Source: Candidatus Accumulibacter meliphilus (GTDB lineage: Bacteria > Pseudomonadota > Gammaproteobacteria > Burkholderiales > Rhodocyclaceae). From it: a DNA stretch of 64,000 bases. Positions 9,607 through 54,463 of the stretch are shown here, piece after piece. The notes under the pieces were generated by a model. That model worked only from the letters and a program-made list of their open reading frames with translations. It was not told the origin of the DNA and did no database searches. Made by a program: the position numbers and the translations under genes. The DNA is taken from contig QPGA01000006.1 of assembly GCA_003332265.1 (NCBI GenBank), forward strand, positions 1 to 64,000, written 5' to 3'. Each line of letters starts with the position of its first letter. The first letter of the stretch is position 1.

Positions 9607-9731
9607 TAACGGTCATGACAGTCGAGATACCCCGGATGATGAAAGTCATGACCGTCCCACTCTTCCCCCGGCCCTTCTCCCGCAAGGGGCGAAGGGAGGT
9701 TCGTGAGTCGCTTGCGCGACTTTCACATTAA
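9607..9731 (+). repeat. TAA-bounded dispersed repeat, copy 1
   Basis: A 125-bp intergenic repeat starting TAACGGTCATGACA and ending GCGCGACTTTCACATTAA. Inside are three palindromic blocks: GTCATGAC-type arms at the left, a CCCTTCTCCC/GGGGCGAAGGG hairpin, and GTGAGTCGC/GCGACTTTCAC at the right. Four further copies occur in the window. The right end supplies the TAA stop of trkH (minus strand, 9728-9730). There is no coding potential inside. Confidence 0.85.
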
Positions 9732-11188
9732 CTCCGCCAGAAACCCGGCGTCAGCAGGACCAGCAGAGTGAAAATCTCGAGGCGTCCTCTTCCGATCTCC
9801 CAGGTGCACACCCAGGTCTGCAAGTCGGTCAGCACGGCGTAGGTCGAGGCCGGGCCGACGAGATTCAGTCCAGGACCGGTGTTGTTCAAGCAGGCGACGA
9901 CGGCGGAGAAGGCGGTGATGATGTCCAGTCGCGTGGCGACCATCAGTAGCGTCATCACGACGATGCTGACCACGTAGATGAACATGAAGCCAAGTATGGC
10001 GTGCAGCACCTGGTCCGGAATGACCGTCGCGCCGAAGCGCACCGTCTGCAGGCCGCGCGGGTGCATGGCCCGAGTCAGTTCGCGCGACACCTGCTTGTAG
10101 AGCACGACCGCGCGCATCATCTTGATACCGCCGCCGGCCGAGCCCGAGCAGGCGACGAAGCTGCCCAGAAAAAGGATCCACAGTTGCCCGAACAGGGGCC
10201 ACTGCACGTAATCGGTGGTCGCGAAGCCGAGCGAAGTGGCCAGGGATACCGAGTGGAAAGCGACGTAGCGCAGGGTCGTCAGGAAATCCGCGTAGATCGC
10301 CTCCGGCCAGAGGTAGACCGAAAGCGCCAGGATGCTCAGTGCCAGAATGCCCAGGAAATAGTGCGCCTCGATGTCGGCCAGATAGGCACGCAGCGATCGC
10401 TGCGAGAAGGCCAGGAAGTGCGTGCTGAAGTTGATGCCGGCGAGCAGGGCGAAAAAGATGACCACCAGTTCGATATCGAGACTGTCGAAGTGGCCGAGAC
10501 TGGCATCCTTGCTGGAAAAACCGCCGAGACCCATCACCGAGAAGGCGTGCATCAACGCGTCCCAGCCGTCCATGCCCAGGAAATACAGACTGCCGGCGCA
10601 GGCAGCGGTAAGGATCACGTAGACGACCCACAGGCCCTTGGCCGTCTCGGTGATGCGCGGCGTGATCTTGGAATCCTTCATCGGACCAGGGGTTTCGGCC
10701 TTGAGCATGCCGCGGCCGCCGAAACCGAGCAAAGGCAAAATGGCGACAGCGAGCACGACAACGCCAAGGCCACCGACCCAGTGCATGAAGGTACGCCAGA
10801 AGTTGATCGACAAGGGCAGTTGATCAAGTCCGGACAAGGCCGTCGCACCGGTCGCCGTGAGGCCCGAAACGGCTTCGAAGTAGGCGTCCGTCCAGGTCAG
10901 TCCGTCGATGTGCAGATACAGGGGTAGCGCGCCGAAAGCCGGCAGCAGTACCCAGATCAGGGCGACCAGCAGGAAGCTCTCGCGCACCCGCATCTCGCGC
11001 TGCTGCCTGCCTATCGAAAACGACAGCAGAACGCCGCTGAGGACGGTGATCAGCACCGCTTCGTCGTACGCGCCTTGCGCGCCATCGGCCGTCAGCCACG
11101 AGATGGCGAGCGGGATCAGCATCAGGAAACCGAAGCCGGTAACCAGCACGCCGAGGACATACAGCGCCGGTGCGAAACGCCCAAACAT
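9728..11188 (-). CDS. trkH: Trk-type potassium uptake protein TrkH
   Basis: TrkH is the membrane channel subunit of the Trk K+ uptake system. The 486-residue product shows the four filter-type loops: SGLTATGATALSG, HAFSVMGLGGFSS, SLATSLGFATTDY and ACLNNTGPGLN. It has about 10-12 membrane segments in the order expected. ATG 11188 (MFGRFAPALYVLG) is preferred, as GAGGTG precedes it by 6 bases and the length matches E. coli TrkH (483); GTG 11251 would add 21 polar residues. The stop codon lies within repeat copy 1. No trkA is in the window. Confidence 0.93.
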   Translation of the reverse strand: MFGRFAPALYVLGVLVTGFGFLMLIPLAISWLTADGAQGAYDEAVLITVLSGVLLSFSIGRQQREMRVRESFLLVALIWVLLPAFGALPLYLHIDGLTWTDAYFEAVSGLTATGATALSGLDQLPLSINFWRTFMHWVGGLGVVVLAVAILPLLGFGGRGMLKAETPGPMKDSKITPRITETAKGLWVVYVILTAACAGSLYFLGMDGWDALMHAFSVMGLGGFSSKDASLGHFDSLDIELVVIFFALLAGINFSTHFLAFSQRSLRAYLADIEAHYFLGILALSILALSVYLWPEAIYADFLTTLRYVAFHSVSLATSLGFATTDYVQWPLFGQLWILFLGSFVACSGSAGGGIKMMRAVVLYKQVSRELTRAMHPRGLQTVRFGATVIPDQVLHAILGFMFIYVVSIVVMTLLMVATRLDIITAFSAVVACLNNTGPGLNLVGPASTYAVLTDLQTWVCTWEIGRGRLEIFTLLVLLTPGFWRS

Positions 11189-11451
11189 GCGCGCACCTCG
11201 CGAGTCGGTGGAAAGCGACGAAGAACCCGAGTTTTTTTCGATACTGGCCACCAGCGTTCTTGAGACCCGCCACGAGCATCGCCAAGCGACCCGCCAGGGG
11301 GCTATGCGCGAGGATCAGGGACCGAAATAAGCAGCCGCAGGAGCGAGAGAGCATCACCGATCCTGGCAGCCGCGATGTGGCGGGCATTCTATACCGAAAG
11401 TTTCGCCAAGGCGCCGCAGCGGGCCACGCAAGGCGTTTATCGCTTGCGCGC

Positions 11452-11577
11452 TAACGGTCATGACATGTCAAGATACCTCGATCATGAAAGTCATGACCGT
11501 TCCCCCTCTTCCCCAGACCCTTCTCCCGCAAGGGGAGAAGGGAGCTTCGTGAGTCGCATACGCGACTTTCACATTAA
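11452..11577 (+). repeat. TAA-bounded dispersed repeat, copy 2
   Basis: A 126-bp copy: TAACGGTCATGACATGTC at the left, CCCTTCTCCCGCAAGGGGAGAAGGG hairpin in the middle (split here: CCCTTCTCCC / GGGGAGAAGGG), and CGCGACTTTCACATTAA at the right. The right end provides the TAA stop of the FAD/Fe-S oxidoreductase on the minus strand (11574-11576), exactly as copy 1 does for trkH. The rest of the 11189-11451 gap holds no gene I can see. Confidence 0.85.
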
Positions 11578-14500
11578 AGCAGCACCCGTTCGATGCCGCC
11601 GTTGTTGGCCTGGCCGACGTAGCGCGCCAGCCAGTCGTCGCCAAGCAGGCGCTTGACCATTTCGACGACGATGTAGTCGGCCTCTGTGCCGCTGTCATCG
11701 TTGTAGCGGGACAAACCTTGCAGGCAAGAGGGGCAGGAGGTAAGCACCTTGATCGGACCGCTAAAGCCATCCGCCCGCTGCCGATCGACGCCGTTGGCGA
11801 TCTCCTCCTGCTTGCGGAAGCGCACTTGGGTAGACACGTCGGGACGCGTCACGGCCAGGGTTCCCGACTCGCCACAGCAACGCGCCGAGAGTTCGACCTG
11901 CTGGGCCATCAGGCTGTTGACCACCTTGATGCCGGGCATGGTCCGCATCGGCATGTGACAGGGGTCGTGATAGAGGTAGCGAGTGCCGCTGACACCGTCG
12001 AGGCAGACACCTTTTTCGAGCAGATACTCGTGAATGTCGAGCAGACGACAACCGGGAAAGATCTGCTCGAAGTGGTATTTTTCGAGCTGGTCCATACAGG
12101 TGCCACAGGAGACGATGACGGTCTTGATATCCAGATAGTTCAGGGTGTTGGCGACGCGATGGAAAAGCACCCGGTTGTCGGTGGTGATCCGCTGCCCCTG
12201 GTCGGCCTCGCCGGCCGCCGTCTGCGGATAGCCACAGCACAGGTAGCCCGGCGGCAGCACGGTTTGCGCGCCAATCTCGTAGAGCATCGCCTGCGTGGCC
12301 AGAGCGACCTGAGAAAACAGGCGCTCGGAGCCGCAACCCGGGAAATAAAAAACCGCATCGCCGTCATAATCCGGGGCGCTGACTTTTTGCGGATCGCGGA
12401 TGATCGGGACGATCTTGTCGTCCTCGATGTCGAGCAGCGCACGCGCCGTGCGTTTGGGAAGTCCGCCAGGCATCGGTTTGTTGATGAAGTGGATGATCTG
12501 CGACCGGAGCGTTGGCGAACCGAGCGTCGCCGGCGGTTGCCGCGTTTGCGCCTGGATCAGGCCCAGCGACTTCGCCGCCCGGTAAGCCAGGCGCTGCGCC
12601 CGATAGCCCCAGTCGATCATCAGCTTGCGCACCAGCTTGATGGTCGCTGGATCCTTGATCGTCAGGAAAGCCATGGCCGCCGCCTTCGCCGGCACGAATT
12701 TCTTCTTGCCCTGCTCGCGCAGGAGATTGCGCATGCGAATCGAAACATCGCCGAAATCGATATCGACCGGGCACGGCGTCAGGCACTTGTGGCAGATCGT
12801 GCAGTGATCGGCGACGTCATTGAACTCGTCGAAATGGCGCAGCGAAACGCCGCGCCGGGTCTGCTCCTCGTAGAGAAAAGCTTCGATCAGCAAGGAGGTG
12901 GCAAGGATCTTGTTGCGCGGCGAGTAGAGCAGGTTGGCGCGCGGAACGTGCGTCGAACAGACCGGCTTGCACTTGCCGCAGCGCAGGCAGTCCTTGACCA
13001 TCGCCGAAATGTGGCCGATTTCCGACTGCTCCATGATCAGAGACTCGGTGCCGAGCAGCGAGAACGACGGCGTGTAGGCCTTGCTCAGATCGCCGCCCGG
13101 CAGCAGCTTGCCCTTGTTGAAATGGCCTTCGGGATCAACCCGGGCCTTGTAGTCGCGAAAAGGCTGGATTTCCTCATCGCTGAGGAATTCCAGCTTGGTG
13201 ATGCCAATGCCGTGCTCGCCCGAGACAACGCCGTCGAGCGCCCGCGCCAGCGCCATGATCCGCTCGACCACGGCATACGCTGTCTGCAGCATCTCGTAGT
13301 TGTCGGAGTTCACCGGAATATTGGTGTGCACGTTGCCGTCACCGGCGTGCATGTGCAGGGCGACAAACAGGCGGCTGCGCAATGTCTGCTGCTGAATCGC
13401 GGCGATACGTTCGACGACCGGTCGGTAAATGACGCCGTCGAAAATGTCTTCGAGCTGCGGCTTGAGCTCGCTCTTCCACGACACGCGCAGCGAGTAGTCC
13501 TGCAAGCGATGAAAAAGCGTCGGCCTGGGCGCCCGATTCTTCAACTCGCCACTGCTCAGGCCACGTGTGGCGAACTGCGCTTCGGCCTCGTGCAGCGGCT
13601 GGTCGAGGCTGTCGAGCAACCACTGCCAGCGGGTGCGTACGCTGGCCACCGTTTCCAGCGCGGCGGCTCGACGTTCGCCGATCAACAGCTCCTTGTCGAG
13701 GTCGGCGTCGCCACGGTGCAGGGGCAGGTCGCCCTGCAGGAATTCGCTCAGGGCGTCGCAAAGGGCCAGCTTGTTGCCGATCGACAGCTCGATGTTGATG
13801 CGCTCGATGCCGTCACAGTATTCGCCCATCCGCGGCAGCGGAATCACCACGTCCTCGTTGAGCTTGAAAGCGTTGGTATGGCGTGAAATGGCGGCGGTGC
13901 GCGAGCGATCAAGCCAGAATTTCTTGCGCGTTTCGGCGTCGACGGCGATGAAGCCTTCGGCGCCGCGCAGATTGCACAGGCGCACCACTTCCGACGCGGC
14001 GCTCATCACCGCCGACTCATCGTCACCGACCAGATCACCGATGAGCACCATTTTCGGACGCCCGGCGTTTTCCGCTTTGCGCTTGGCCTTGGTCGCGTAG
14101 CCGACGGCGCGCAGATAGCGCTCGTCGAGGTGTTCGAGTCCGGCGAGCAGGACGCCAGCGGCCTTGCCGCCGCCCCCAGGCGAAAAATGATCGGTAATCT
14201 CGACAATCGCCGGCACCGCCTCGCGTACATGGCCGAAAAACTCGAGGCAGACGGTGCGGGTATGTTGCGGCATGCGGTGCAGAACCCAGCGCGCGGCGAC
14301 GACCAGGCCGTCCGTGCCCTCTTTCTGGACACCGGGCAGACCGGCCAGAAACTTGTCGGTGACGTCCTTGCCGAGACCCGCCTTGCGAAAGCTTGAGCCA
14401 AGAATCTCCAGCATTTCGGGCTCGCCATAGAGCGTCTTGCCATCTTTGCGAAAACGCCTGATCTCGAAGCGCACCGTCTCCTGTTCGTGGATCTTGCCGA

Positions 14501-15449
14501 AGTTGTGGCCGATGCGCGTCACTTCCATCAGATGACCACTGGGGTCGACCATCTTCCACCAGGCCAGATTGTCCACCGCCGTTCCCCACAGCACCGCCTT
14601 CTTGCCGCCAGCGTTCATCGCCACGTTGCCGCCGATGCACGAGGCATCTGCCGAAGTGGGGTCGACCGCGAACACCCGCCCGGCAGCCGTCGCGGCTTCC
14701 GCGACGCGAGCCGTGACCACCCCGGCACCGGTACGGATCGTTGCGTAGGGGCGATCACATCCGGGCAGGCGCATTTCCTCGACAGCACCGATGTTCATCA
14801 ACTTCTCGGTGTTGATCACCGCCGCCAACGGCGTCAGCGGAATCGCACCGCCGGTGTAACCGGTACCGCCACCGCGCGGAATGATGGTCAGCCCGAGTTT
14901 GATGCAGGCACGCACCAGGGCGCCGATCTCTTCCTCACTGTCCGGATTGAGCACCACGAACGGGTATTCGATGCGCCAGTCGGTGGCATCGGTGACGTGC
15001 GAGACGCGCGCCAGGCCGTCGAAAGCAATATTGTCGCGGCGCGTATGCCTGGACAGGGCTTTTGTGACCTTGCTGCGCAGCCTGGCCGTAGCGTCGAAAT
15101 GGTGCTCGAAAGCGTCAACCGCCGCCGCGGCGGCGACGATCAGTTGCTGCACGCGTTCATTGCCCTGGCGACGCTTCTCGATCTCGCACAAACGATGGCG
15201 AAGCGCAGCGATGAGCGCCACTCGCCGCTCGCGACTGGCGAGGAGATCGTCCTCCAGGTAGGGATTGCGCTGTACCACCCAGATATCGCCGAGCACCTCA
15301 TAGAGCATCCGCGCCGAGCGACCGGTAACGCGTTCGGCGCGCAACTGGTCGAGCAAGGCCCAGTTTTCCGCGCCGAGCAGACGAATGACAATCTCGCGGT
15401 CGGAAAAAGAGGTGTAGTTGTAGGGGATCTCGCGCAGGCGTGCGTTCAT
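11574..15449 (-). CDS. DUF3683 / FAD-binding oxidase / Fe-S / CCG-domain oxidoreductase
   Basis: A 1,291-residue fusion. An N-terminal DUF3683 region (about 1-170) precedes a PCMH-type FAD domain ([15 protein letters not shown] near 195-205; [22 protein letters not shown]). A FAD-oxidase C-terminal domain follows, with [18 protein letters not shown] and [14 protein letters not shown]. Two 4Fe-4S clusters come next ([11 protein letters not shown] near 820, [14 protein letters not shown] near 880), then two CCG motifs (CCGYPQTA near 1073, CCGESG near 1190). The layout resembles a fused GlcD-GlcF or D-lactate dehydrogenase feeding electrons to the membrane pool. A 2-hydroxyacid substrate is inferred. 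The stop is supplied by repeat copy 2. Confidence 0.9.
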
Positions 15450-15671
15450 TGATACTCTCTGCTAGCAGCAAAGCGCGAATTCTAGCTTATTGCAGTGCAA
15501 CAGCGATGGCCGCCGGGCAGGCGAGCTTTCCGCTCGAACCAGTCGCACGGCCTGCCGCTTCCTCCGGTATCCTGTCGCCATCAGCTTGGGAGGGCGCATG
15601 TACAGGAACACTTGTCGGGCGACTGCTTTCGCCAGCGGGCCTGGACTTTGCCGGCGGCGGGACCGGCCGGC

Positions 15672-16865
15672 TTGATTCACGAAACACTGCTCGACCTCCT
15701 GGCCAGCATTGCCTGGCCGGCGGCGATCGCCATCGCCTGGACCGTCGGCGAACTGGCTTACCGCTGGCTAGCGCTGCCGCGGATCAGCAGTTATGGCATC
15801 GCCGGCTTCTTGATGACCGCCAGCCAGGGGGGATTTCTCCACAATCCGTCGGGAACGCCGATCGCTCTCCTGGCTCATTTCGCTTTCGGACTGATCCTGT
15901 TCGAGCTTGGCTATCGCATCAATCTGCGCTGGCTGCGGGTCAACCCGTGGCTGGCAATCACCGGCGTGGTCGAGGCGAGCGGCTGTTTTGCGGCGGTGTT
16001 CATGCTCGCGCAAGCTTTTTCCTTGCCAATGGTGCCGTCACTGCTTCTCGCCGCCCTGGCCATGGCCACCTCGCCGGCAGCTGTGCTACGGGTGGCCAAC
16101 GAACTGCAAAGCTCCGGCCAGGTCACCGAGCGCCTGTTCCATCTCACCGCCTGCAACTGCCTGCTCACTCTGTTCATCTTCAAGGCCGTCGTCGGCTACT
16201 GGGTGCTGGCCAGCGCTGGCAGCGCCTTCGAAGCGGTCTGGAATACCCTGGTAGTGATCGGCGTATCGGTCGCCATCGGCGCCACCTTCGGCGTTGCCGT
16301 TCCCGCGCTGCTCCGCCAACTCGGCAACATCGACCGCAATGCGACCGTCGCCTTTGCCGCCGCGGCCTTGCTGCTGACGGCTGTCACGCACGCCTTCAAG
16401 TTCTCGCCGCTGCTGGCGGCGCTGGCCTTCGGACTGGTCGCTCGGCACCGGCGCGCGATTCTCTCACAGGCGCAGCGCAACTTCGGCACCCTGGGCGACC
16501 TGCTGACCGTGCTGTTATTCGTTTTTATCACCGCCTCGCTCGACTGGCAGCAGGTACGCAACGGACTCACCCTGGCATTGGCCGTCATCGCCGTGCGTCT
16601 GACGGTCAAGATGGCAGCCACCACCGTCTTCGCGCATCTCAGCGGCGTCAGTTGGCGGAAAGGCGCGTTGACCGGCCTGGCAATGACGCCGATGTCCGGC
16701 CTGGTCATCGTCCTCCTCGAACAGACCCGACACCTCAAGCTCTACGCACTCGATCAGGTGGCCGGCCTGGCGGCGATCGTCCTGCTGCTGGAAGTGATTG
16801 GCCCGGTCGTTACCCGCCGGGCACTGGTCTGGGCTGGTGAAACGCATCAGCCAGAGGGCCGCTGA
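15672..16865 (+). CDS. Kef/CPA2-type cation:proton antiporter, membrane domain only
   Basis: A 397-residue integral membrane protein with about 12 hydrophobic segments, including [18 protein letters not shown]-like N-terminal repeats, [36 protein letters not shown] and [21 protein letters not shown], characteristic of monovalent cation:H+ antiporters. No C-terminal TrkA-N or nucleotide domain is present. The start is uncertain: TTG at 15672 gives [17 protein letters not shown] after the first residue, placing the first membrane segment near the N-terminus; an ATG far upstream at 15495 would add about 59 implausible residues. It is followed 2 bp later by ybdK. The transported ion is not known. 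Confidence 0.8.
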
Positions 16866-16867
16866 AC

Positions 16868-17998
16868 ATGCCTCTCGACCCCTTCAAGCCCAGCGCGTCC
16901 CTGAGCATGGGAATCGAGCTCGAACTGCAATTGGTCAACTGGACCGACTTCGACCTCTCGGGCTCGGCCAGCGATCTCCTCCACCTGCTCGGCCACCGCA
17001 CTTTCCCCGGCGACGTCAAGCCCGAGATTACGCAAAGCATGATCGAAATCTCGACCGCCGTTCATCACCAGCACGCCGAACTGTTGGCACAACTGCGCGA
17101 CATCCGCGACGCCTTGGTGCGCGGCGCTGACCGCCTCAACGTGGCCGTCTGCGGCGGTGGCACGCATCCCTTCCAACGCTGGTCGCAGCGGCGCATTTTT
17201 CCCAATCCGCGCTTCAATCAGCTATCCACGCTCTACGGTTATCTTGCCAAGCAGTTCACCGTCTTCGGACAACACATTCACATTGGCTGTACCAGCGCCA
17301 ACGAAGCGCTCTACCTGCTCCATTCATTGAACCGCTACGTGCCGCACTTCATCGCCCTGTCGGCGTCCTCGCCTTTCTTCCAGGGAGTCGACACGCAATT
17401 CGACTCGGCACGCCTGAATTCGGTCTTTGCCTTCCCCTTGAGCGGCCGCGCACCCTTGCTGCTCGACTGGCACGAGTTCGAGCATCGCTACTTTGCAAAA
17501 ATGGAAACCACCGGCGTCGTCAAGCACATCAAGGACTTCTACTGGGATATCCGCCCAAAACCGGAGTACGGCACGATCGAGCTGCGCGTCTGCGATACGC
17601 CGCTCACCGTTGACCGGGCGGCGGCGCTCGCCGCCTACCTGCAGGCGCTCTGCCGCATGCTCCTGCAACGCGACGAAGCGCCACCCGTCGAAGACGATTA
17701 TCTGGTCTACAACTACAACCGCTTTCAGGCCTGCCGCTTCGGCCTCGATGGCGTGCTGGTTCACCCCAAGAGCCACGACAGTCGGCTGCTGCGCCAGGAC
17801 ATCCTGGCCACCCTCGCCAGACTTGAACCCCATGCCGCGGCCCTGGACAGCGTCGGGGCACTCGAGCAGCTACGCCATGAAGTGAGCTCGGAAGGCAACC
17901 ACGCCAGCTTCCTTCGCCAGCACTTTGCCGATGCGGGTAGCGTTCAGGGCGTGGTCGACGCCGCGGTAACGCTCTTCCGGCGGGGGAGAAGCAGGTAA
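16868..17998 (+). CDS. YbdK-family carboxylate-amine ligase (glutamate-cysteine ligase type 2)
   Basis: A 376-residue GCS2-family protein. The opening [15 protein letters not shown] holds the metal/substrate-binding EIE-like motif; [33 protein letters not shown] and [14 protein letters not shown] are family motifs. E. coli YbdK has weak gamma-glutamylcysteine ligase activity, and the physiological product is often unknown. It sits directly behind the antiporter gene (2-bp gap), a recurring pairing that may link it to glutathione-gated cation efflux; that link is inference. Confidence 0.88.
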
Positions 17999-18079
17999 GG
18001 CAGCTGCCGCGAAGTGAGCGGCGACCACTTCACCTGCTAGAATCCTCGTTTTCCCTCGCTGCACACCGCCGCTGCCAAA

Positions 18080-19591: not shown

Positions 19592-19726
19592 TTGTCCGCC
19601 TCTGCGTCACAGACGGGCGCAGCAATGATAGGCTGTGCCGACGACGCCACCGGTAACGACTTGTCACATGCCGCTGTTGGTTCCTGAACCAGTCCACACA
19701 GGACACTTTCCGAGGAGAGCATCCAC

Positions 19727-20665
<939 letters not shown>

Positions 20666-20670
20666 GCGGC

Positions 20671-21837: not shown

Positions 21838-21902
21838 ACCTCCACGAAGACACCCGCGACCGCGAGTCGGCGGCACGGCTCGCGGACCGGATTCAGCAGC
21901 GC

Positions 21903-22535: not shown

Positions 22536-22579
22536 GTGATATGCTCAAAACAGATATTTTTCGAGAAATCCAGCTTACC

Positions 22580-24541: not shown

Positions 24542-24589
24542 TTGCCTTAAAATCATGTTTTTCGACACTCATTTCACCGGTAGGACGCT

Positions 24590-25555: not shown

Positions 25556-25594
25556 GCAGGCCAGCGCGCCGCGCCAGGTGCCAGCACTGCGCTG

Positions 25595-38874: not shown

Positions 38875-39011
38875 GAAACGTCCTTTCTGGTCAAGAAGTC
38901 ACGCCACCATACTAGAGCGTCCGCCGCCCATTGCCAAGGAAAGTCTTCCCCGTGCTACGGTGTCGTGAAATTCGCCGCCAAGTCCTGCGAGAAAGTCAGC
39001 AGCCAGAGCGC

Positions 39012-39647: not shown

Positions 39648-39769
39648 GTCCAAACTCCCATTGACAACAATGACTGATCTGAGGCCGGCGAAGCCAAGCG
39701 ACAAACCTGATATTCTATATCAGTTTGCTGTCTGGACACGTGCCGGTCCATCTACTCTCGGGTTCCCTG

Positions 39770-40483
39770 ATGCCACTCTTCCAGAAAGCTGCTTTCAGCA
39801 CGACGGTTGCCAAGCTGCGTGATCTACCCGCCGATTCACAGTGCGAAGTCGCCTTTGCCGGACGCTCGAACGCCGGCAAGTCGTCGGCGATCAATACGCT
39901 GGCCAATCACACCCGCCTGGCCTTTGTCTCCAAGACACCGGGACGAACGCAGCACCTCAATTACTTTTTGCTCGAACCAGGAAAATACTTCGTCGACCTG
40001 CCAGGCTACGGCTTCGCCAAAGCCCCGGAGGAGATCCGCTCGCAATGGGAAGGCTTGCTGGCGCCCTACCTGCGCCACCGCGACGCCCTCTGTGGTCTGG
40101 TGCTGATCATGGACAGTCGCCATCCACTCACCGAACTCGACTTGCAGATGTTCGGCTGGTTCGCGCCAACCGGCAAACCAATTCACGTCCTGCTGACCAA
40201 AGCTGACAAGCTGACTCGCCAGCAACAGCTACTGGTTTTTCGCGAGGTCCAGGAGGTATTGGCGGAAATTGGCGAGAACTTCAGCCTGCAGCTTTTTTCG
40301 AGCCTGCAGAAATCCGGCGTCAAGGAAGCGGAGGCGGTCCTCGCTGGCTGGCTTGACCTGCCGCTGAAAGACGACCCGGCGCCACGCACTGGGCTAGCCA
40401 GCGAGAAGAAAGCCCGCCCCAAGAAGCGCGGAGCCATGGGTTGGAGTGCGCGCAGCGGCAGCAGCGTCACCAAGAGTCATTAA
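39770..40483 (+). CDS. engB: Ribosome biogenesis GTPase EngB (YihA/YsxC)
   Basis: An essential GTPase needed for 50S assembly. The 237-residue protein shows G1 [15 protein letters not shown]2/G3 [11 protein letters not shown] and [10 protein letters not shown]4 LLTKADKL, and G5 near [11 protein letters not shown]. The C-terminus has a basic tail ([15 protein letters not shown]). ATG 39770 gives the standard start [16 protein letters not shown]. The stop TAA (40481-40483) falls at the start of a tandem pair of dispersed repeats. Confidence 0.95.
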
Positions 40484-40605
40484 TGTGAAAGTCGCGCAAG
40501 CGACTCACGAAACTCCCTTCTCCCCCTGCGGGAGAAGGGTCTGGGGAAGAGGGAAACGATCATGACTTTCATGATTCGGGGTATCTCGACATGTCATGAC
40601 CGTTA
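40480..40605 (-). repeat. TAA-bounded dispersed repeat, copy 3 (tandem with copy 4)
   Basis: Opposite orientation to copies 1 and 2 on the plus strand: TTAATGTGAAAGTCGCGCAAG at the left (hairpin GTGAaAGTCGC/GCGACTcAC), CCCTTCTCCC/GGGAGAAGGG, then GACATGTCATGACCGTTA at the right. Its first TAA is the engB stop, in the same codon phase as copies 1 and 2 (NNT TAA TGT). The right TTA is shared with copy 4. Confidence 0.85.
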
Positions 40606-40729
40606 ATGTGAAAGTCGCGCAAGCGACTCACAAACCTCCCCCTTCTCCCCTCGCGGGAGAAGGGTCAGGGGAAGAGGGGACGGTCATGGCTTTCATCATC
40701 AGGGGTGTCTCGACATGTCATGACCGTTA
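40603..40729 (-). repeat. TAA-bounded dispersed repeat, copy 4 (tandem with copy 3)
   Basis: A second full copy, fused head to tail with copy 3 through a single shared TTA (40603-40605). It reads TTAATGTGAAAGTCGCGC, CCTTCTCCC/GGGAGAAGG, GACATGTCATGACCGTTAG. It differs from copy 3 at several positions (for example CAAACCTCCC against GAAACTCCC), so the pair is not a very recent duplication. Confidence 0.85.
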
Positions 40730-40739
40730 GTCAAGGCGC

Positions 40740-43033
<2,294 letters not shown>

Positions 43034-43039
43034 CTCGCT

Positions 43040-46273: not shown

Positions 46274-46394
46274 GGCGACCAACGGAAATTTTTCGGGGAA
46301 AGTCTACACGACTGTGGAAGGCCGCGGTGGAGCAACACTTACTGGGAAAAGAAGGTGAAGGAAGCGCTGTCGTGGCAGATGTATCGGCCGTGCT

Positions 46395-47042
46395 TCAGAG
46401 CCGGGCGAGATGGCGCGGCAAGTCGAGAATCGAAACCAGCCGCACGTCGACCCAGGCCGGCTGGCGCGTTTCCGCACTCACCCAGACGGTCTTCATGCCG
46501 AGTCGCTTCGCTGTACGCAGATTGGGCCGAGTATCTTCGACCATGATGCAGCACTGCGCAGTCAAACGCTCGCTGCGCAAGAGGTGGCGAAAGCCAGCGA
46601 CTGCCGGTTTCGGTTGGAAGCGAAGGCGTTCGACCGAATAGATGGCGTCGAAACAGCGGCGAACACCGGTCATTTCCAGAACCGCCTCACTATAACCCAG
46701 CGGCGCGTTCGAGAAGACGATCTTGCGCCCTGGCAAGCGATCGAGCATGGCCTTCAGGGCGCGTTCGAAGACCAGTATCCGCTTGAGGTCCGGAAACTGG
46801 TGCGTATGCCAGAGAAAATGCCTGGGATCGATGGCATGATGGCGCATCAGGCCGAGCAGCGTGGCACCGTAGCGCTGCCAGTAATCCTGCCGAATACGCG
46901 TTGCCTCCTCTTCGTCCACACCGAGGTGCTGGCGGATGTACGCCACCATCGAACGGTTGATCTGCGGAAAAATATGCGGACTGGCGTCGTGCAGAGTGTT
47001 GTCGAGGTCGAAAAGCCAGACCGGCGCGGACGCTCTCAGCAG
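46395..47042 (-). CDS. Pyrimidine 5'-nucleotidase (HAD family)
   Basis: A HAD phosphatase of the family that dephosphorylates pyrimidine nucleotides. The catalytic motif VWLFDLDNTLHDA (DxDxT) is encoded upstream of the first ATG (46949), so the true start must lie between the upstream in-frame TGA and about 47010. No ATG, GTG or TTG exists in that stretch. CTG at 47042 or 47039 is the best candidate, with CAGGGAA before it, giving about 216 residues. Other motifs: KIVFSNAPLGYS and KPAVAGFRHLL with VEDTRPNLRTA. It follows argB by 10 bp on the same strand. Confidence 0.85.
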   Translation of the reverse strand: MLRASAPVWLFDLDNTLHDASPHIFPQINRSMVAYIRQHLGVDEEEATRIRQDYWQRYGATLLGLMRHHAIDPRHFLWHTHQFPDLKRILVFERALKAMLDRLPGRKIVFSNAPLGYSEAVLEMTGVRRCFDAIYSVERLRFQPKPAVAGFRHLLRSERLTAQCCIMVEDTRPNLRTAKRLGMKTVWVSAETRQPAWVDVRLVSILDLPRHLARL

Positions 47043-47052
47043 AGTTCCCTGA

Positions 47053-47970
<918 letters not shown>

Positions 47971-48030
47971 TTACGCGGCAGCGGTGGAAATACAAAGGCA
48001 GCGCACGCTGAACGCTGCGCCGCGAGCCCA

Positions 48031-48972
48031 ATGATCGCGACCACGGCGACAGAGGAGCACGCTCAGCGCCCGCCGCCACCCTATCGCGGCCGCTTTGCGC
48101 CTTCACCAAGCGGCCCGCTGCACTTCGGTTCGCTGGTCGCCGCCGTCGGCAGCTATCTCGACGCCCGGGCCCACGGCGGCCAGTGGATGCTGCGCATCGA
48201 GGACGTAGACCAGCCGCGGACGGTTGCCGGTGCCGCCGACGACATCCTGCGCACGCTGGAAGGCTTCGGCTTCGCCTGGGATGGTGAAGTGCTCGTCCAG
48301 AGCCGGCGTCTCGACCTCTACCACGCCGCACTGGTGCGCCTGCAACTCGAGGGCGAGGTCTACCCCTGCGCCTGCTCGCGAACGGAAATTGCTGCCTGCT
48401 CGCCGCCACGATCGGTCGATGGCGGCCTGGTCTACCCGGGAAGCTGCCGCAACGGCCTCGCCGCGGGCCGAGCGGCACGCGCCTGGCGGCTGCGCGTCGC
48501 CGACGCGACGATCACTTTCGGCGATCGCGTTCAGGGCGATGTGCAGCAGAATCTCGAACGCGCCGTCGGCGACTTCATCCTGCTGCGTGCCGACGGCCAG
48601 TACGCGTACCAGCTGGCAGTCGTCACCGACGACGCCGCGCAAGGGATCAACGCGGTCGTCCGCGGCGTCGACCTGCTCGACTCGACGCCACGGCAGATCT
48701 GGCTGCAGCAACGTCTGGCGCTGACTACGCCGACTTACGCGCACCTGCCGGTGGTGACCAATGCCGCCGGCGAGAAGCTCTCCAAACAAACGCGGGCGGC
48801 CGCCGTCGATCTCTCAGGCGGCAGCGCTGTCCTGTCGGCAGCCCTAAAATTTCTTGGCCACGCTGTTCCGCCGGAAATCAGCGCCGGACCGCTGCGCGAT
48901 TTCTGGCCCTGGGCAATTGCCGCCTGGTCGATCGAGCGTGTTCCGGCCTTGCGCGGCGTCTGCCCCTACTAG
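48031..48972 (+). CDS. gluQ: Glutamyl-Q tRNA(Asp) synthetase GluQRS
   Basis: A truncated GluRS paralogue that glutamylates the queuosine base of tRNA(Asp), not the 3' end. The 313-residue protein starts RGRFAPSPSGPLHFGSLVAAVGS (the HIGH-type motif), holds the zinc cluster YPCACSRTEIAACSP, and has the class I signature EKLSKQTRA in place of KMSKS. The anticodon-binding domain of full GluRS is absent, as expected. ATG 48031 is used. Its last 4 bases overlap the convergent cls gene. Confidence 0.92.
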   Translation: MIATTATEEHAQRPPPPYRGRFAPSPSGPLHFGSLVAAVGSYLDARAHGGQWMLRIEDVDQPRTVAGAADDILRTLEGFGFAWDGEVLVQSRRLDLYHAALVRLQLEGEVYPCACSRTEIAACSPPRSVDGGLVYPGSCRNGLAAGRAARAWRLRVADATITFGDRVQGDVQQNLERAVGDFILLRADGQYAYQLAVVTDDAAQGINAVVRGVDLLDSTPRQIWLQQRLALTTPTYAHLPVVTNAAGEKLSKQTRAAAVDLSGGSAVLSAALKFLGHAVPPEISAGPLRDFWPWAIAAWSIERVPALRGVCPY

Positions 48973-50129
48973 CGCTTGCCGCCGTAACCGACGATGCCGA
49001 CCAGGGTCCGCACCAGGTTGTAGCTTGCCCAACGCAGCAGGCGCGAATGCCAGGGCAGACGCTTCCAGCTATCGATCGGCAGTTCGCGCGCGCCATTGCG
49101 CATCGCCTGTTCGAGACTCTCGCGCAAGCTGTTGGCGAACAGCGGATCCTTGACGACGATATTGGCTTCCCTGGCCAGCAGCAGACTGAAAGGATCGATA
49201 TTCGACGAGCCGACGGTCGCCCAGTGACCGTCGATAACCGCCACTTTGGCATGCAGGAAGCTGCGCCGATACTCGAAAATGCGGATGCCGAAGCCCAGTA
49301 AGCGACCATACAGGGCCTGCGTCGCGTAGTGGAGGAGGCGATATTCGATCCGCCCCTGCAACAGGATGACCACCCGCACGCCGCGCTTTACGGCGTCGCG
49401 CAGGGCGCGGCGAAAGCGCCGACCGGGCAGGAAGTAGGCGTTGGCGAGCAGAATGTCCTGCTGCGCAGCGGCAATGGCCTCGAGATACGCCTCCTCGATG
49501 TCGCGGCGGTGGAGAATATTGTCGCGCACCACGAAGGCGGCGGTCTGCTCGCCACGTGCTCCCGGATCGGTCTGCGCACGCCTGGTAAGGCGGTAACGAC
49601 GATTCAGCTTTGCCCACAACACGATTTCCCACAGTCGCTGCTGGGCCTGCTGAATCGGCGCCAGCAAGGGGCCTTCGACGCGAACTGCGTAGTCGTAGCG
49701 CGGCGGGATCTGATACGGCGTATTGAGGTCGTCGATGACGTTGATACCACCGACGAAGGCGATTTCACCGTCGATCACCGCCAGCTTGCGATGCAAACGA
49801 CGCAGACGATGGCGGCGCAAACGAAAGCGCGCGATGTCGGGTCGGTAAACCATCGCCTGTACGCCAGCGGCGAGCAAGGCCGGTTGCAGAGACTCGGCGA
49901 ACTCCCGAGCGCCGAAGCCGTCGACCAGCACGCGGACCGTGACGCCCCGTCGGGCAGCGCTGGCCAGCGCCGCGGCGACCGCCTGACCGGTCGCATCGTC
50001 CTCGAAAATGTAGCTTTCGAGGTGAACATCGTGCTGCGCGCCGTCGATCGCCCGGATCAGCTCCGGAAAGTACTCGGCCCCGCTGTTCAGCAGGGTCAAG
50101 CGATTGCCGGGCAGGAAGTCAGCGGGCAT
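48969..50129 (-). CDS. clsB: Cardiolipin synthase ClsB-type (two HKD motifs)
   Basis: A phospholipase-D-superfamily enzyme forming cardiolipin. From ATG 50129 the 386-residue product has HKD motif 1 LHRKLAVIDGEIAFVGG and HKD motif 2 LHAKVAVIDGHWATVGSSN, and lacks N-terminal membrane segments, matching ClsB/YbhO. A GTG at 50216 would extend the protein by MPGEA(GV)11NS encoded by a hexanucleotide repeat; I prefer ATG 50129, which starts MPADFLPGNRLTLL and follows GGAGTC 6 bases away. The repeat then lies in the leader and ends in GGAG ribosome-site-like units. Confidence 0.88.
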   Translation of the reverse strand: MPADFLPGNRLTLLNSGAEYFPELIRAIDGAQHDVHLESYIFEDDATGQAVAAALASAARRGVTVRVLVDGFGAREFAESLQPALLAAGVQAMVYRPDIARFRLRRHRLRRLHRKLAVIDGEIAFVGGINVIDDLNTPYQIPPRYDYAVRVEGPLLAPIQQAQQRLWEIVLWAKLNRRYRLTRRAQTDPGARGEQTAAFVVRDNILHRRDIEEAYLEAIAAAQQDILLANAYFLPGRRFRRALRDAVKRGVRVVILLQGRIEYRLLHYATQALYGRLLGFGIRIFEYRRSFLHAKVAVIDGHWATVGSSNIDPFSLLLAREANIVVKDPLFANSLRESLEQAMRNGARELPIDSWKRLPWHSRLLRWASYNLVRTLVGIVGYGGKR

Positions 50130-50135
50130 GGAGTT

Positions 50136-50201
50136 GACTCCGACTCCGACTCCGACTCCGACTCCGACTCCGACTCCGACTCCGACTCCGACTCCGACTC
50201 C
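50136..50201 (+). repeat. (GACTCC)11 hexanucleotide tandem repeat
   Basis: Eleven perfect head-to-tail copies of GACTCC, 66 bp, ending 6 bp from the cls start codon. Read on the gene strand each unit is GGAGTC, so every copy offers a GGAG Shine-Dalgarno-like core. Copy number changes keep reading frame in any extended form. Long perfect hexamer tracts are uncommon in a chromosome like this. Confidence 0.97.
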
Positions 50202-50572
50202 GGCTTCGCCTGGCACACAGCCTTGCTGCCTTGATCCGAAACGCGACCTCGAAAAGGACTTTACCGAACCGGCAGCCGCTCAAGCGCGCTACTCCCCCTA
50301 TGCCCATGACTCCCGCCATCGCCGCCAAGCGCGTCGAGCAGCTATTCTCGACGCTTCGCGCACACGCGTCCAGCGCCGTGCACAAGGCTTCTCGCGCGCC
50401 TCGGAAAATACAGTACAGCCCAAATACGCAAAGCTCATGCCAACCGCAAGCGCGCGGAGCGAAGCTACGATGGTCGCCACTTGCCGACCGGAGAAACGAG
50501 GGTGAGAATGCGACTTTCTCCACTCGGCGAACAGCTGCCTGGCCAGGTTCGCGGCAGCGGATGGGCTGAGCC

Positions 50573-50616
50573 TTGATCCACGTCAAGGCCCAGCCGCCAA
50601 GCCTACCCTCTAATAC
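50573..50616 (+). promoter_or_regulatory. Dnr/FNR-type box and promoter of nirJ-nirN
   Basis: TTGATCCACGTCAA (50573-50586) matches the TTGATN4GTCAA half-site pattern of Dnr/NnrR/FNR regulators. Its centre lies about 42 bp before the start predicted from the -10 TAATAC (50611-50616), the geometry of a class II activated promoter. Which regulator binds cannot be read from sequence. The rest of 50217-50572 holds no gene I can see. Confidence 0.8.
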
Positions 50617-50641
50617 ACGGTTTTCTTTCGGGAAGTGCACG

Positions 50642-51835
50642 ATGTTTCGAATCTCCCAGTACATGCAGGAACTCGCGGCACCCAAGCAGCCCGGCCCCAA
50701 GCAGAATCCACCGGCGCCGGTGGTCATCTGGAATCTCATTCGCCGCTGCAATCTGACCTGCAAGCACTGCTATTCGATCTCTGCCGACAAGGACTTCCCC
50801 GGCGAACTGAGCACCGACGAGATTTTTGCGGTGATGGACGACCTCAAGCGCTTCCGCGTTCCGGTGCTGATTCTGTCCGGCGGCGAGCCGCTGTTGCGAC
50901 CGGACATCTTCGACATCGCCCGGCGCGCAAAAGCGATGAGCTTCTACGTCGGGCTGTCGTCCAACGGAACCCTGATCGACGCCACGAACATCGACCGCAT
51001 CGCCGAGTGCGATTTCGACTATGTCGGCGTTTCGCTCGACGGCATGGGCGCAACGCACGACAAATTCCGGCGCATGGAAGGCGCTTTCGAAGCCTCGCTG
51101 AAAGGCATTCGCCTGTGCCGTGACCTGGGCCTGAAAATCGGCGTCCGCTTCACGATGACCCAGGATAATGCGCACGACCTGCCGCGCCTGCTCGAACTGG
51201 TCGAGGACGAAGGCATCGATCGCTTCTACTTCTCGCACCTCAACTACGCCGGTCGCGGCAACAAGAACCGCAAGGACGACGCGCAACACAAGCTGACACG
51301 CTGGGCCATGGACCTGCTCTTCGATACCTGCTGGGACTATCAGCAACGTGGCCTGCACAAGGAGTTCACCACCGGCAACAATGACGCCGACGGAGTCTAC
51401 TTTCTGTACTGGGTGAAAAAGAACTTTCCCGACAAGGCAGCCAACATCCGCGCGCGGCTGGCGCAATGGGGAGGCAATTCCTCGGGAGTCAATGTGGCCA
51501 ACATCGACAATCTCGGCAATGTCCATCCCGACACCATGTGGTGGCACTACAACCTCGGCAACATCCGTGAGCGGCCGTTCTCGGAAATATGGACAGATGT
51601 TTCCGAGCCGCTAATGGCCGGTCTGAAGCAGTTTCCGCGCAGCGTTTCGGGGCGTTGCGGTGACTGCCAGCATTTCGACATCTGCAACGGCAACACGCGT
51701 GTGCGCGCGCAACAGCTGACCGGCGACCCCTGGGCCGAAGACCCCGGCTGTTATCTCGACGACGAAGAAATCGGCGTCGAACCCGGCCGCGAACGCTTGA
51801 CTGTCACCCCGCACATCAGAATCCGGAGAGCCTGA
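50642..51835 (+). CDS. nirJ: Heme d1 biosynthesis radical SAM protein NirJ
   Basis: NirJ removes propionate side chains from didecarboxysiroheme on the path to heme d1, the cofactor of cytochrome cd1 nitrite reductase. The 397-residue protein has the radical-SAM motif RRCNLTCKHCYSIS, LILSGGEPLLRPD, GLSSNGTLID and a C-terminal SPASM-like cysteine set (GRCGDCQHFDICNGN, DPGCYLDD). ATG 50642 gives MFRISQYMQEL, the family start. Stop and the nirN ATG share one A (TGATG). Confidence 0.93.
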   Translation: MFRISQYMQELAAPKQPGPKQNPPAPVVIWNLIRRCNLTCKHCYSISADKDFPGELSTDEIFAVMDDLKRFRVPVLILSGGEPLLRPDIFDIARRAKAMSFYVGLSSNGTLIDATNIDRIAECDFDYVGVSLDGMGATHDKFRRMEGAFEASLKGIRLCRDLGLKIGVRFTMTQDNAHDLPRLLELVEDEGIDRFYFSHLNYAGRGNKNRKDDAQHKLTRWAMDLLFDTCWDYQQRGLHKEFTTGNNDADGVYFLYWVKKNFPDKAANIRARLAQWGGNSSGVNVANIDNLGNVHPDTMWWHYNLGNIRERPFSEIWTDVSEPLMAGLKQFPRSVSGRCGDCQHFDICNGNTRVRAQQLTGDPWAEDPGCYLDDEEIGVEPGRERLTVTPHIRIRRA

Positions 51836-53442
51836 TGAACTGGCGCCTCGCTATGTCTGCCGCCTGCCTCGCAGCGTCTCTTGCTGGCGGATCGTCGTTC
51901 GCCAGCGCTGCCGGAGCACCCGAGGCAGCCGGCGTCCAGGCACTTTACAAGGAGCACTGCGCCGCCTGCCACGGCGAAACGCGCTTTGGCGGTGTCGGGC
52001 CGGCTCTCCTGCCGGAAAACCTGGCACGACTGCGCAAACCAGAAGCGCTGAAAGTGATCGGCGAAGGGCGCGTGGCGACGCAGATGCCGGCCTTTGGCGA
52101 CAAGTTGAGCGCCGATCAGGTGCAAGAACTGGCCGACTTGATCTACAGCCCGGTGACGCCAGCGCCAAAATGGGACGCGGCCGAGATCCGCGCCTCGCAA
52201 GTGGTCAACGCCGACGCCGGCAAACTACCCGACCAGCCCGGTCCCGGGCTGAAAGGCGCCGACCCGCTGAATCTGTTCATCGTCGTCGAAACCGGCGACC
52301 ATCACGTGTCGGTGCTCGACGGCGACAAACTCGAACGCCTGCACCGCTTTCCCAGCCGCTACGCACTGCACGGCGGACCGAAGTTCTCGCCCGATGGCCG
52401 CTTTGTCTATTTCGCTTCGCGCGACGGCTGGATCACCAAGTTCGACATCTACAACCTGGTCGTCGTCGCCGAAATCCGCGCCGGCCTGAACACGCGCAAC
52501 GCTGCCGTTTCCGGTGACGGCAAGTGGGTGATGGTTGCCAACTACCTGCCGCACAGCCTGGTCCTGCTCGACGCCAAAGACCTCTCGCTGGTGAAGATCA
52601 TCCCGACGCTCAACGCTGCCGGCGACAAGACTTCGCGGGTATCTGCGGTCTACGACGCGGCGCCGCGCAAGAGTTTCGTCGCCGCACTGAAGGACGTTCC
52701 CGAAGTCTGGGAGATCAGCTACGATCCCGACGCCGAACCGGTTGCCGAAGGTCTGGTGCACGACTACCAGTACCGGGAAGGTCACTTCACTCCGGCCATG
52801 TTCTATCCGCGGCGAACCCTGCTCAAGGATTATCTCGACGATTTCTTTTTCACCCAGAGCTACCACGAGATCCTGGGTGCCTCGCGCTCGGCAAGCAAGG
52901 GACAGGTGATCTTTCTCGACGGCCGCAACAAGATCGCCGACCTCGATCTGCCGGGAATGCCGCATCTTGGCTCGGGCATCACCTGGCAGTGGACCGATCC
53001 GACGGGTCGCGAACGGTCGGTGATGGCCTCGCCGAACCTCAACGAAGGGGTGGTGACGGTCATCGACCTCGAAACCTACAACATCATCAAGGAAATAAAA
53101 ACGCTCGGCCCGGGCTTCTTCCTGCGCAGTCACGAGAACAGCCGCTACGCTTTTACCGACTCGATGATGAGCAAGGAAAACAGGAACGTTCTGCAGGTAA
53201 TCGACAAGCAGAGCCTGGAAGTGGTCGGGCAGATCAAGGCCAAACCGGGACAGACGCTGGCCCACGTCGAATTCACTCGGGACGGCCGCTACGCGCTGGC
53301 CAGCCTCTGGGAAGACGATGGCGCGCTGCTCGTGATCGACGCGCAGACGCTCGAGGAAGTGAAGCGAATTCCGGCCAGGAAACCGGTGGGCAAGTACAAC
53401 GTCTGGAACAAAATATCACGTTCCGAAGGCACCAGCCACTGA
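51835..53442 (+). CDS. nirN: Cytochrome c-d1 domain protein NirN (dihydro-heme d1 dehydrogenase)
   Basis: A periplasmic 535-residue protein: signal peptide ending SFASAAG, a cytochrome c domain with CAACH (C42, C45, H46) and MPAFGDKLSADQ, then an eight-bladed d1-type propeller (ETGDHHVSVLDGDKLERLHRF onward). Similar architecture occurs in NirS, but NirN-type features such as HLGSGITWQW and GPGFFLRSHENSRYAF, and adjacency to nirJ, favour NirN, which completes heme d1 and may hand it to NirS. A NirS role is the main alternative. NirF would lack the CxxCH. Confidence 0.82.
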   Translation: MNWRLAMSAACLAASLAGGSSFASAAGAPEAAGVQALYKEHCAACHGETRFGGVGPALLPENLARLRKPEALKVIGEGRVATQMPAFGDKLSADQVQELADLIYSPVTPAPKWDAAEIRASQVVNADAGKLPDQPGPGLKGADPLNLFIVVETGDHHVSVLDGDKLERLHRFPSRYALHGGPKFSPDGRFVYFASRDGWITKFDIYNLVVVAEIRAGLNTRNAAVSGDGKWVMVANYLPHSLVLLDAKDLSLVKIIPTLNAAGDKTSRVSAVYDAAPRKSFVAALKDVPEVWEISYDPDAEPVAEGLVHDYQYREGHFTPAMFYPRRTLLKDYLDDFFFTQSYHEILGASRSASKGQVIFLDGRNKIADLDLPGMPHLGSGITWQWTDPTGRERSVMASPNLNEGVVTVIDLETYNIIKEIKTLGPGFFLRSHENSRYAFTDSMMSKENRNVLQVIDKQSLEVVGQIKAKPGQTLAHVEFTRDGRYALASLWEDDGALLVIDAQTLEEVKRIPARKPVGKYNVWNKISRSEGTSH

Positions 53443-53450
53443 GCCAGGCG

Positions 53451-53756
53451 ATGACCGTGACCATCAACCATTCCTTGCGCATCGTGCTGGCTGGTGCGTT
53501 GCTGCTCGCTTGCACGGAAACTTTGTCGGTACCGAAAGCTGCCGAGAATGCAGCTGGCGAGGTCATCATTGGCGCACCGACGGTGCACTCGAAACCGGCG
53601 CCAAAAGGCGCGACGAGCCCACCAGCGGCGCAAGCCAAGGGGGGAAAATCGAGCCCGGCCGGCAAGGCAACGCCGCGGAAGAAGACGTCGGCCAAGCCGA
53701 AGACCAAGACGAACACGAAGACAAACACGAAAGCGAAGGGCAAGTCACGGAAGTAG
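53451..53756 (+). CDS. Small putative lipoprotein with Lys/Thr-rich tail
   Basis: A 101-residue protein 8 bp after nirN. The N-terminus MTVTINHSLRIVLAGALLLAC has a plausible lipobox (LLLAC). The rest is low-complexity: PPAAQAKGGKSSPAGK and a C-terminal run of Lys and Thr (KTNTKTNTKAKGK). No family is recognised. The spacing suggests it is the last gene of the nirJ-nirN operon. The basic tail might bind membrane, nucleic acid or an anionic partner, none of which is shown. There is no clear ribosome site, so confidence is moderate. Confidence 0.55.
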   Translation: MTVTINHSLRIVLAGALLLACTETLSVPKAAENAAGEVIIGAPTVHSKPAPKGATSPPAAQAKGGKSSPAGKATPRKKTSAKPKTKTNTKTNTKAKGKSRK

Positions 53757-53896
53757 TCGCAAAGCGTAATAGCGCCGACGCCACAGACTTCTCGACGCCT
53801 TGCCGGGACCCACTTTGCGGTACTTTTCTGTGCGCAGGGGAACAGCGAGGGTGACGCTCCTTGCCGTTCAATCCATCCTCCCTCCCGGAGTTCTTG

Positions 53897-54340
53897 ATGT
53901 ACAGACTTCCTTGTTTCCTGATCGCGCTGGCGCCCTTGCTGGCTTCGCTGCCCGTTTCTGCGCAGCTTGCGCGCATCGAGCTCAGCGCCGGCTTTTACCG
54001 TATCGAAGCGGAAGTCGCCGCGGATGACGCCAATCGCGCGCAGGGTCTGATGAATCGCCGCAGCCTGCCGGCCAACCACGGAATGCTGTTCGTCTTTGCG
54101 CAGGCTACCCGCCATTGCATGTGGATGCGCAACACCTACCTGCCGCTGTCGGTCGCGTTTCTCGACCAGGAGGGGCGCATCCTCAACATCGAAAAAATGC
54201 AGCCGCAGACCGAAGACAACCACTGCGCCGCTGGTGACGCACGCTACGCGCTGGAAATGAACCTCGACTGGTTCGCCAGCAAGGGAATCAAGCCGGGGAC
54301 GCGCATTGCCGGTATCGACAAATCGCCGCGTCCACAGTAA
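53897..54340 (+). CDS. DUF192 family exported protein
   Basis: A 147-residue protein with signal peptide MYRLPCFLIALAPLLASLPVSAQ followed by a single DUF192 domain: EVAADDANRAQGLMNRRSLPANHGMLFVF, CMWMRNTYLPLSVAFLDQEGRIL and ALEMNLDWFASKGIKPG. The family is widespread and its function is unknown. ATG 53897 has CGGAG about 8 bases upstream and places the signal at the N-terminus; ATG 53861 is less likely. The stop TAA (54338-54340) is the left boundary of repeat copy 5. Confidence 0.9.
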   Translation: MYRLPCFLIALAPLLASLPVSAQLARIELSAGFYRIEAEVAADDANRAQGLMNRRSLPANHGMLFVFAQATRHCMWMRNTYLPLSVAFLDQEGRILNIEKMQPQTEDNHCAAGDARYALEMNLDWFASKGIKPGTRIAGIDKSPRPQ

Positions 54341-54463
54341 CGGTCATGACATGTCGAGATACCCCAGATCATGAAAGTCATGACCGCCCCCCTCTTCTCC
54401 CTGCCCTTCTCCCGCAAGGGGAGAAGGGCGTTTCGTGAGTCGCTGGCGCGACTTTCACCGTAA
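54338..54463 (+). repeat. TAA-bounded dispersed repeat, copy 5
   Basis: A 126-bp copy: TAACGGTCATGACATGTCG, CCCTTCTCCC/GGGGAGAAGGG, GTGAGTCGC/GCGCGACTTTCACCG, TAA. Here the gene (DUF192) ends at the left boundary, so the element lies in the opposite sense relative to the gene compared with copies 1-3, yet again on the stop TAA. The right edge has CCG in place of CAT before TAA. Confidence 0.85.

Follow-up and report, generated by a model that had tools for sequence, protein, structure and literature searches.

The first 64,000 nucleotides of contig QPGA01000006.1 of Candidatus Accumulibacter meliphilus (GenBank assembly GCA_003332265.1), the whole stretch of DNA analysed here and called the window below, hold five copies of a short palindromic repeat that is a mobile element. 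Related genomes carry empty sites, and the stop codons touched by the window copies predate the insertions and stay, or become, TAA. We infer that the element, which is non-coding and non-autonomous, is probably moved in trans by a single-strand transposase of the HUH (Y1-like) type, the candidate enzyme class favored by the form of its ends, its target and its arrays.

Five Copies of a Three-Hairpin Element

The copies, each of about 125 bp, lie on the plus strand at 9607..9731 (copy 1), 11452..11577 (copy 2) and 54338..54463 (copy 5) and on the minus strand at 40480..40605 (copy 3) and 40603..40729 (copy 4). As the preliminary description had proposed, they share one order of three hairpins and have TAA on both sides. 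A left hairpin is followed by a G+C-rich central hairpin and a right hairpin; in copy 2 these span 11453..11501, 11518..11542 and 11549..11572 (all plus strand), the first two resting on both folding and covariation and the third, which is followed by the terminal ATTAA, on folding. Read in the orientation of the element, each of the five copies starts with TAACGGTCATGACA. Four of them end in ...GACTTTCACATTAA, and the copy at 54338 ends in ...TTTCACCGTAA, with the right end CACCGTAA. Compared with dinucleotide shuffles, folding gave z values of -4.3 to -8.0, and for each of the five copies 0 of 200 shuffles folded as well. Copies 3 and 4 form a tandem pair, of which copy 3 is the right-hand and copy 4 the left-hand member in element orientation, and their overlap is exactly the TAA common to both.

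Empty Sites in Related Genomes

We compared 1.25 Mb of the host genome (105 matches to the element, 75 of full length) with 0.95 Mb from G008. Of the relatives seen, this genome is the closest; it is 96%, 96% and 90% identical at three window queries and diverges from the host over 0.61 Mb by 5.2% in coding and 8.5% in non-coding sequence. Among 82 host clusters of copies, G008 was empty at 19, shared the insertion at 10 and had a gap of another size at 9, and the ortholog was not resolved at 44. Conversely, for the 49 G008 clusters with usable flanks, the host was empty at 10, shared 9, differed at 5 and was unresolved at 25. A short empty match (0-6 bp or -1) was obtained at 31 loci, and exactly 3 bp stood between the flanks at 14 distinct ones, a count from which one site repeating 54338 in G008 and one half-element (L069) were excluded; the remaining loci were mostly 1-2 bases off, via trimmed matches or diverged flanks. 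The triplet at the 14 exact sites was TAA in 8, TAG in 3, and TGG, TTA and TCA in 1 each. At one locus, for example, G008 reads TCGCC-TAA-AGTTT and the host TCGCC-TAA-CGG...CAT-TAA-AGTTT. Relatives with empty sites were found at all four window loci and elsewhere. The element is therefore mobile, and the single triplet of the empty site faces TAA at both junctions of the filled one, a pattern that a 3-bp target duplication and an element-borne terminal TTAA would leave alike.

Divergence at the target was controlled for with 109 ungapped non-coding CTAA triplets from the host, 31 of which differ in G008 (14 gapped ones were set aside). This control removes the need for a model in which the donor overwrites the target triplet, which we dropped. 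TAG is shared by several relatives at the sites 40480 and 11452, and these two would need one prior transition or some other explanation. The site at 11452-11577 is occupied in the host, G004 and G002 and empty in G008; by eye, its copies have no obvious shared derived bases, and the triplets on their left are not the same (TAA versus TGA), a hint that the site was entered more than once.

Target Preference and Head-to-Tail Arrays

The base before the left TAA was C in 36, and the two bases GC in 27, of 45 non-tandem copies with an intact left end, against a background in which GC precedes TAAC in 8.1% of cases in the sequence analysed. No base bias was seen at the right flank. C also stands on the left in 42 of 56 copies at other loci, and agreement was weaker in G008 (C in 11/20; G at -2 in 7/20). 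The element thus prefers (G)C-TAA as its target, and does so on the left side only.

Insertion also looks polar. All 39 same-orientation junctions of a right end with a left end (22 in the host, 6 in G008 and 11 at other loci; 34 distinct contexts) share exactly TAA, and the three opposite-strand neighbors that were seen are overlapping partial matches. The median similarity of neighbors (0.89) equals that of random copy pairs, so most arrays are not local duplications, although 6 of 19 neighbor pairs lie above the random 95th percentile and may be such. Two arrays that have two full copies in the host and one in G008 can be dated: the left member matches the G008 copy better than the right one does (0.968 versus 0.849; 0.930 versus 0.828), so the newer copy is on the right in both. 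Three further arrays fit growth on the right more weakly, as a resident right-end fragment could hardly show the opposite. One is a triple whose left member has the same truncation point in both species, yet is nearer in sequence to its own neighbors; in the second (g8C17), only G008 has a copy to the right of a solo right end; and in the third, the copy that follows a solo right end is short in the host and long in G008. Accretion on the right is thus shown on few cases.

These properties bear on the idea, raised in the preliminary description, that the repeat resembles a miniature inverted-repeat transposable element (MITE). It is indeed short, non-coding, multi-copy and mobile, and if a DDE transposase moved it as a MITE, with duplication of a 3-bp TAA target, TAA at both junctions and one triplet at the empty site would be expected; the right TAA may, however, be element-borne. 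However, the element lacks terminal inverted repeats: position-matched comparison of the ends of the five window copies gave 5-8 of 20 bases, and local scores were mostly within those of shuffles (33 of 500 shuffles as high in the best case). In addition, the target preference is one-sided, the arrays are polar, and the left triplet has departed from TAA in 13 full copies, of which 11 have kept TAA at the right end and none shows a matching pair. The classical MITE label is therefore not upheld, and movement by a DDE enzyme is unlikely. The lack of terminal inverted repeats, the one-sided target, the head-to-tail polarity and the hairpin ends together favor an HUH-type enzyme over a DDE one.

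Stop Codons at the Window Loci and Genome-Wide

The five copies touch the stop codons of genes at four loci. Copy 1 has its right end on the stop of trkH (TrkH, PF02386; 9728..11251, minus strand), whose TAA is formed across the junction; the gene ends AGT TAA here and in TAG (AGT, CGT or CGC TAG) at the empty sites of G008, G004, G002 and G012. The right end of copy 2 lies on the stop of a gene for an FAD-linked oxidase/Fe-S protein (DUF3683, FAD_binding_4, CCG; 11574..15449, minus strand), which reads CTT TAA here, CTC TAG in the empty G008 and G012, and TAG in G021 and G014, which are likewise empty. Copy 3 has its right end on the stop of a GTPase gene (MMR_HSR1, the engB of the preliminary description; 39725..40483, plus strand), where the element end makes the TAA of CAT TAA; the empty sites of G008, G004, G002, G012 and G021 read CAC TAG. 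At copy 5, which is shared with G008, the left target triplet is itself the TAA stop of a DUF192 gene (53861..54340, plus strand), and the empty alleles are TAA in G012, G004 and G021 and TAG in G002 and G026. At the window loci the gene stop thus predates the insertion and stays or becomes TAA. It is preserved because YTAA reversed is TTAR and the right end is the palindrome TTAA.

The tandem pair is placed between the stop of the GTPase gene and an anti-hemB RNA (RF02837; 40741..40825, minus strand). This RNA has a terminator-like hairpin and a T run that stop just short of the pair and are left intact. The window also holds a class A RNase P RNA (1243-1616, minus strand).

The suggestion that the element inserts at stop triplets holds for the four window loci and is only partly supported as a rule for the genome: 16 of 52 two-ended host loci in the 1.25 Mb lie exactly on a called stop and 36 do not. 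Genes were called with our own codon-usage scripts, and 29 partial and 1 mixed of 82 host clusters and 32 partial and 1 mixed of 53 G008 clusters were dropped from this count. There is nevertheless an excess: without the four window loci, 12 of 48 (25%) are on a stop versus 55 of 409 (13.4%) non-coding CTAA sites (p 0.02), and in G008 the figures are 9 of 20, with 11 off stops, versus 46 of 294 (15.6%; p 0.002); the two sets are not fully independent, as some insertions are shared. In a related test, which recovered 273 of 306 stops of long open reading frames (ORFs), 14 of 64 left ends and 11 of 68 right ends of host clusters fell exactly on a coding stop, as did 8 of 33 and 5 of 37 in G008. 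In twenty empty alleles of the host or G008, the site was intergenic in 11 and coincided with a called stop in 7, three of these being window loci; one further site was at a called start, and one lay within a called gene, some 25 bp from where it ends. At two-ended loci there is no called gene that spans an element, which is a weak test because the element carries stops; the empty alleles are the better one. Convergent regions are enriched in copies (host 16/79 versus 32/276, p 0.06; G008 14/48 versus 23/211, p 0.002) and divergent regions somewhat depleted (17/79 versus 84/276, p 0.16; 9/48 versus 70/211, p 0.06), and where the neighboring genes are co-directional, the element has their orientation in 47 of 71 cases.

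An element that specifically seeks stop codons, by recognizing gene ends, transcripts or terminators, would account for the four of four window loci, the excess over non-coding CTAA sites in both genomes and the share of empty alleles at stops. We regard this as improbable, given the number of loci off called stops in both genomes and given that target sequence, intolerance of insertions inside genes and the bias toward convergent regions may explain much of the excess. Most of the excess is instead ascribed to target choice and purifying selection rather than to dedicated targeting of stop codons.

Family Size, Spread and Conserved Hairpins

The right-end hairpin pattern GTGAGTCGCNNNNGCGACTTTCAC, allowing up to 3 mismatches, occurs at 316 places (153+163) in the whole host genome (4.70 Mb in 120 contigs), and the reversed control pattern at 0, which excludes chance. 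Of 28 genomes from the genus, the host included, 23 have a match (1 to 302 each) when up to 2 mismatches are allowed, and five have none. In a sample of the family, at least 1 match was found in 37 of 395 genomes and 14 of 68 genera, where single matches may be chance and 3 genomes also give one control match. Among the matches listed, most are from Candidatus Accumulibacter; those outside it include Azoarcus sp. and a Rhodocyclaceae bacterium. A search of plasmids gave one 44-bp match to the central part, in a single record listed as Aeromonas caviae, and a search of phages gave no match to the element.

In a longer subfamily, 64-80 additional bases separate the left hairpin from the center and hold two more inverted repeats; the forms span 125-200 bp and three to five hairpins. 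In one long-form copy (L069:396-591), the two extra hairpins differ in sequence, and by eye their pairing pattern is alike. Across 35 copies from several species, 94.4% of cells were paired, and 19 cells had changed on both sides versus 5.9 ± 2.0 in shuffles; slid control structures scored lower on every measure. The signal comes mostly from the left and central hairpins, and conservation of hairpin 3 in loci L061-L140 follows from the way they were retrieved, by an exact match to it; some of these loci, and L217-L305, duplicate host or G008 copies. Compensatory change keeps the hairpins across species. As for the ends, TGAAAGYC is present in 139 of 166 left ends and GACTTTCA in 142 of 166 right ends, and an internal TGAAAGTC is common to both end hairpins, a motif match that is hardly above shuffles in single copies.

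Some copies have unusual forms or surroundings. A 67-bp imperfect palindrome (G000:C44:130904-130970, in L199) consists of two inverted left halves bounded by CTAA and TTAG. Group II introns (RF00029 with RF02005 or RF02003) lie in two copies, at L186:4021-4729 (G000:C25:24021-24729) and L200:729-1221 (G000:C44:140729-141221), both directly 3' of hairpin 1 at the identical position and both with an assembly gap (N) inside. Hairpin 1 thus seems to serve group II introns as a landing site, in the way that class C introns use terminator hairpins. Six G008 contigs (C14, C19, C21, C22, C32 and C37) have an element copy at their start or no more than about 250 bp from it, and the repeat appears to break assemblies.

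Known Systems and Candidate Mobilizers

Repetitive extragenic palindromic (REP) sequences and bacterial interspersed mosaic elements (BIMEs), with their REP-associated tyrosine transposases (RAYTs), resemble the element in being high-copy, intergenic and hairpin-forming and in lying near 3' ends and in convergent regions. Our matches to Y1 transposases number 4 in the host and 58 in the 28 genomes, 25 of which have Y1/RAYT-type genes. The stop of one RAYT in G008 is followed closely by an element, on one side only. As reported in PMC3733652, REPs lie mainly in convergent and co-directional regions and GTAG REP termini often provide TAG stops, which gives the stop-codon side a precedent. A REP/BIME-like family moved by a resident RAYT is nonetheless rather unlikely. 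The GTAG or CGTC tag is absent from the element ends (terminal 12 bases, both strands: of 166 copies, 0 have GTAG/CTAC and 2 have CGTC/GACG), the element is 125-200 bp long and not 20-40, and it has three to five hairpins and head-to-tail arrays with TAA junctions. Moreover, when the neighborhoods of 33 of the 58 Y1 matches were checked, some cut by contig ends, 32 had no nearby element, and relatives of the G008 RAYT (70-72% identity) occur in genomes with zero copies. With no link to copy number or to position among the 33 loci, RAYT/Y1 genes were rejected as the mobilizer. The element is neither a classical MITE nor a GTAG or CGTC REP, the kinds of repeat to which it had been likened at the outset.

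Non-autonomous derivatives of IS200/IS605 elements (PATE-type) come close in several respects: the element has a hairpin at each end, a motif only 5' of the left end and on a fixed strand, and no terminal inverted repeats. Unlike them, it shows no obvious guide tetranucleotides and, in the draft contigs, no orientation bias relative to GC skew, and no parent insertion sequence with its ends was found. ERIC, Correia/NEMIS and RUP MITEs make TA duplications. They are described with terminal inverted repeats, unlike our element with its YTAA site and ends that are not inverted. They are like it in being about 100-200 bp long, non-coding, intergenic, foldable and often at gene 3' ends (PMC10969869, PMC3733652).

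IS91-family (Y2) elements also insert 3' of a short motif without duplication. As mobilizers they were rejected, because the IS91-like element compared in the host and G026 has ends unrelated to those of the repeat and because genomes with zero copies also contain Y2 genes; such genes were found in 13 of 14 genomes searched. Three of the 8 Y2 matches in the host and G008 were inspected and all had an element within 1.5 kb, one having been chosen for its known neighbor element. The IS91-like element itself (L414, L416-L418) is about 2.43 kb long with a Y2 transposase and a second ORF that by eye is recombinase-like; G026 has 14 places with its 439-aa open frame, three compared copies are 98.8-99.96% identical, and the host relative is 92% identical.

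An integron-like cassette, or another substrate of a tyrosine recombinase, would fit the TAAC core at the left end and the VCR-like length. This is highly improbable, since the required target G (the complement of right flank +1) shows no bias and position -2 is mostly G where the attC core (RYYYAAC) wants a pyrimidine; it was rejected on the flank bias. Finally, a search of open-licence papers found none on this element family, which is weak evidence of absence.

Proposed Mechanism

The two terminal hairpins, which are imperfect, flank the G+C-rich central one. In the mechanism that we favor, a transposase acting in trans would insert the element immediately 3' of YTAA, preferably GCTAA, on one defined strand, leaving TAA at both junctions. 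An excised circle would carry the junction ATTAACGG. The right end, TTAA, would offer a fresh target, so that later copies would be added head to tail on that side. Where a gene runs into the left end, its TAA stop would stay unchanged, and for one on the other strand running into the right end T-TAG or T-TAA would become T-TAA. Because TTAA is palindromic, stops would be kept on either strand and such insertions tolerated, with selection against other insertions explaining most of the excess at gene ends.

Several observations weigh against this mechanism. Neither an enzyme nor an autonomous copy with the element's ends was found: no parent TnpA element with the same ends was found among the 33 Y1 loci examined, and the transposase with matching ends that the preliminary description had called for was not met with. 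Although 38 of 54 left-only matches pair with a right-only match within 6 kb, none of these pairs carries a transposase; 34 contain the 64-80-bp extra module, two are split short copies and two hold a group II intron, some being the same locus seen twice. Y1 genes do not track copy number, being present in the zero-copy G011, G012 and G016 and not found in G002 (42 copies; a fragmented draft), and an element lies near only 1 of the 33 Y1 loci examined. Lagging-strand insertion would predict an orientation bias with GC skew, and none was seen (p 0.47 in the host and 0.41 in G008; draft contigs). The left hairpin starts at the junction, with no obvious guide tetranucleotide by eye. The triplet is not TAA at 6 of the 14 exact empty sites, which is near the expectation from divergence and is no proof of a TAA target each time; right-hand accretion is tested without bias by two arrays only; and a strict 3-bp duplication by a DDE enzyme leaves the same sequence at TAA targets.

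Tentatively, the family may represent a new class, in which both ends spell TAA in a stop-keeping phase, the right end is the next target, one-way arrays build up at gene ends and a candidate single-strand transposase acts in trans. Its copies are found at the ends of contigs, in a genus of wastewater bacteria that is uncultured and important in the environment. With 0 to 302 copies among 28 genomes, many species-specific insertions and datable arrays, it offers a usable system for following how hairpin repeats spread. It also shows how a parasite can reach a high copy number in a compact genome while doing little harm, as the triplet on which it lands is frequent at gene ends and is restored by the ends of the element.

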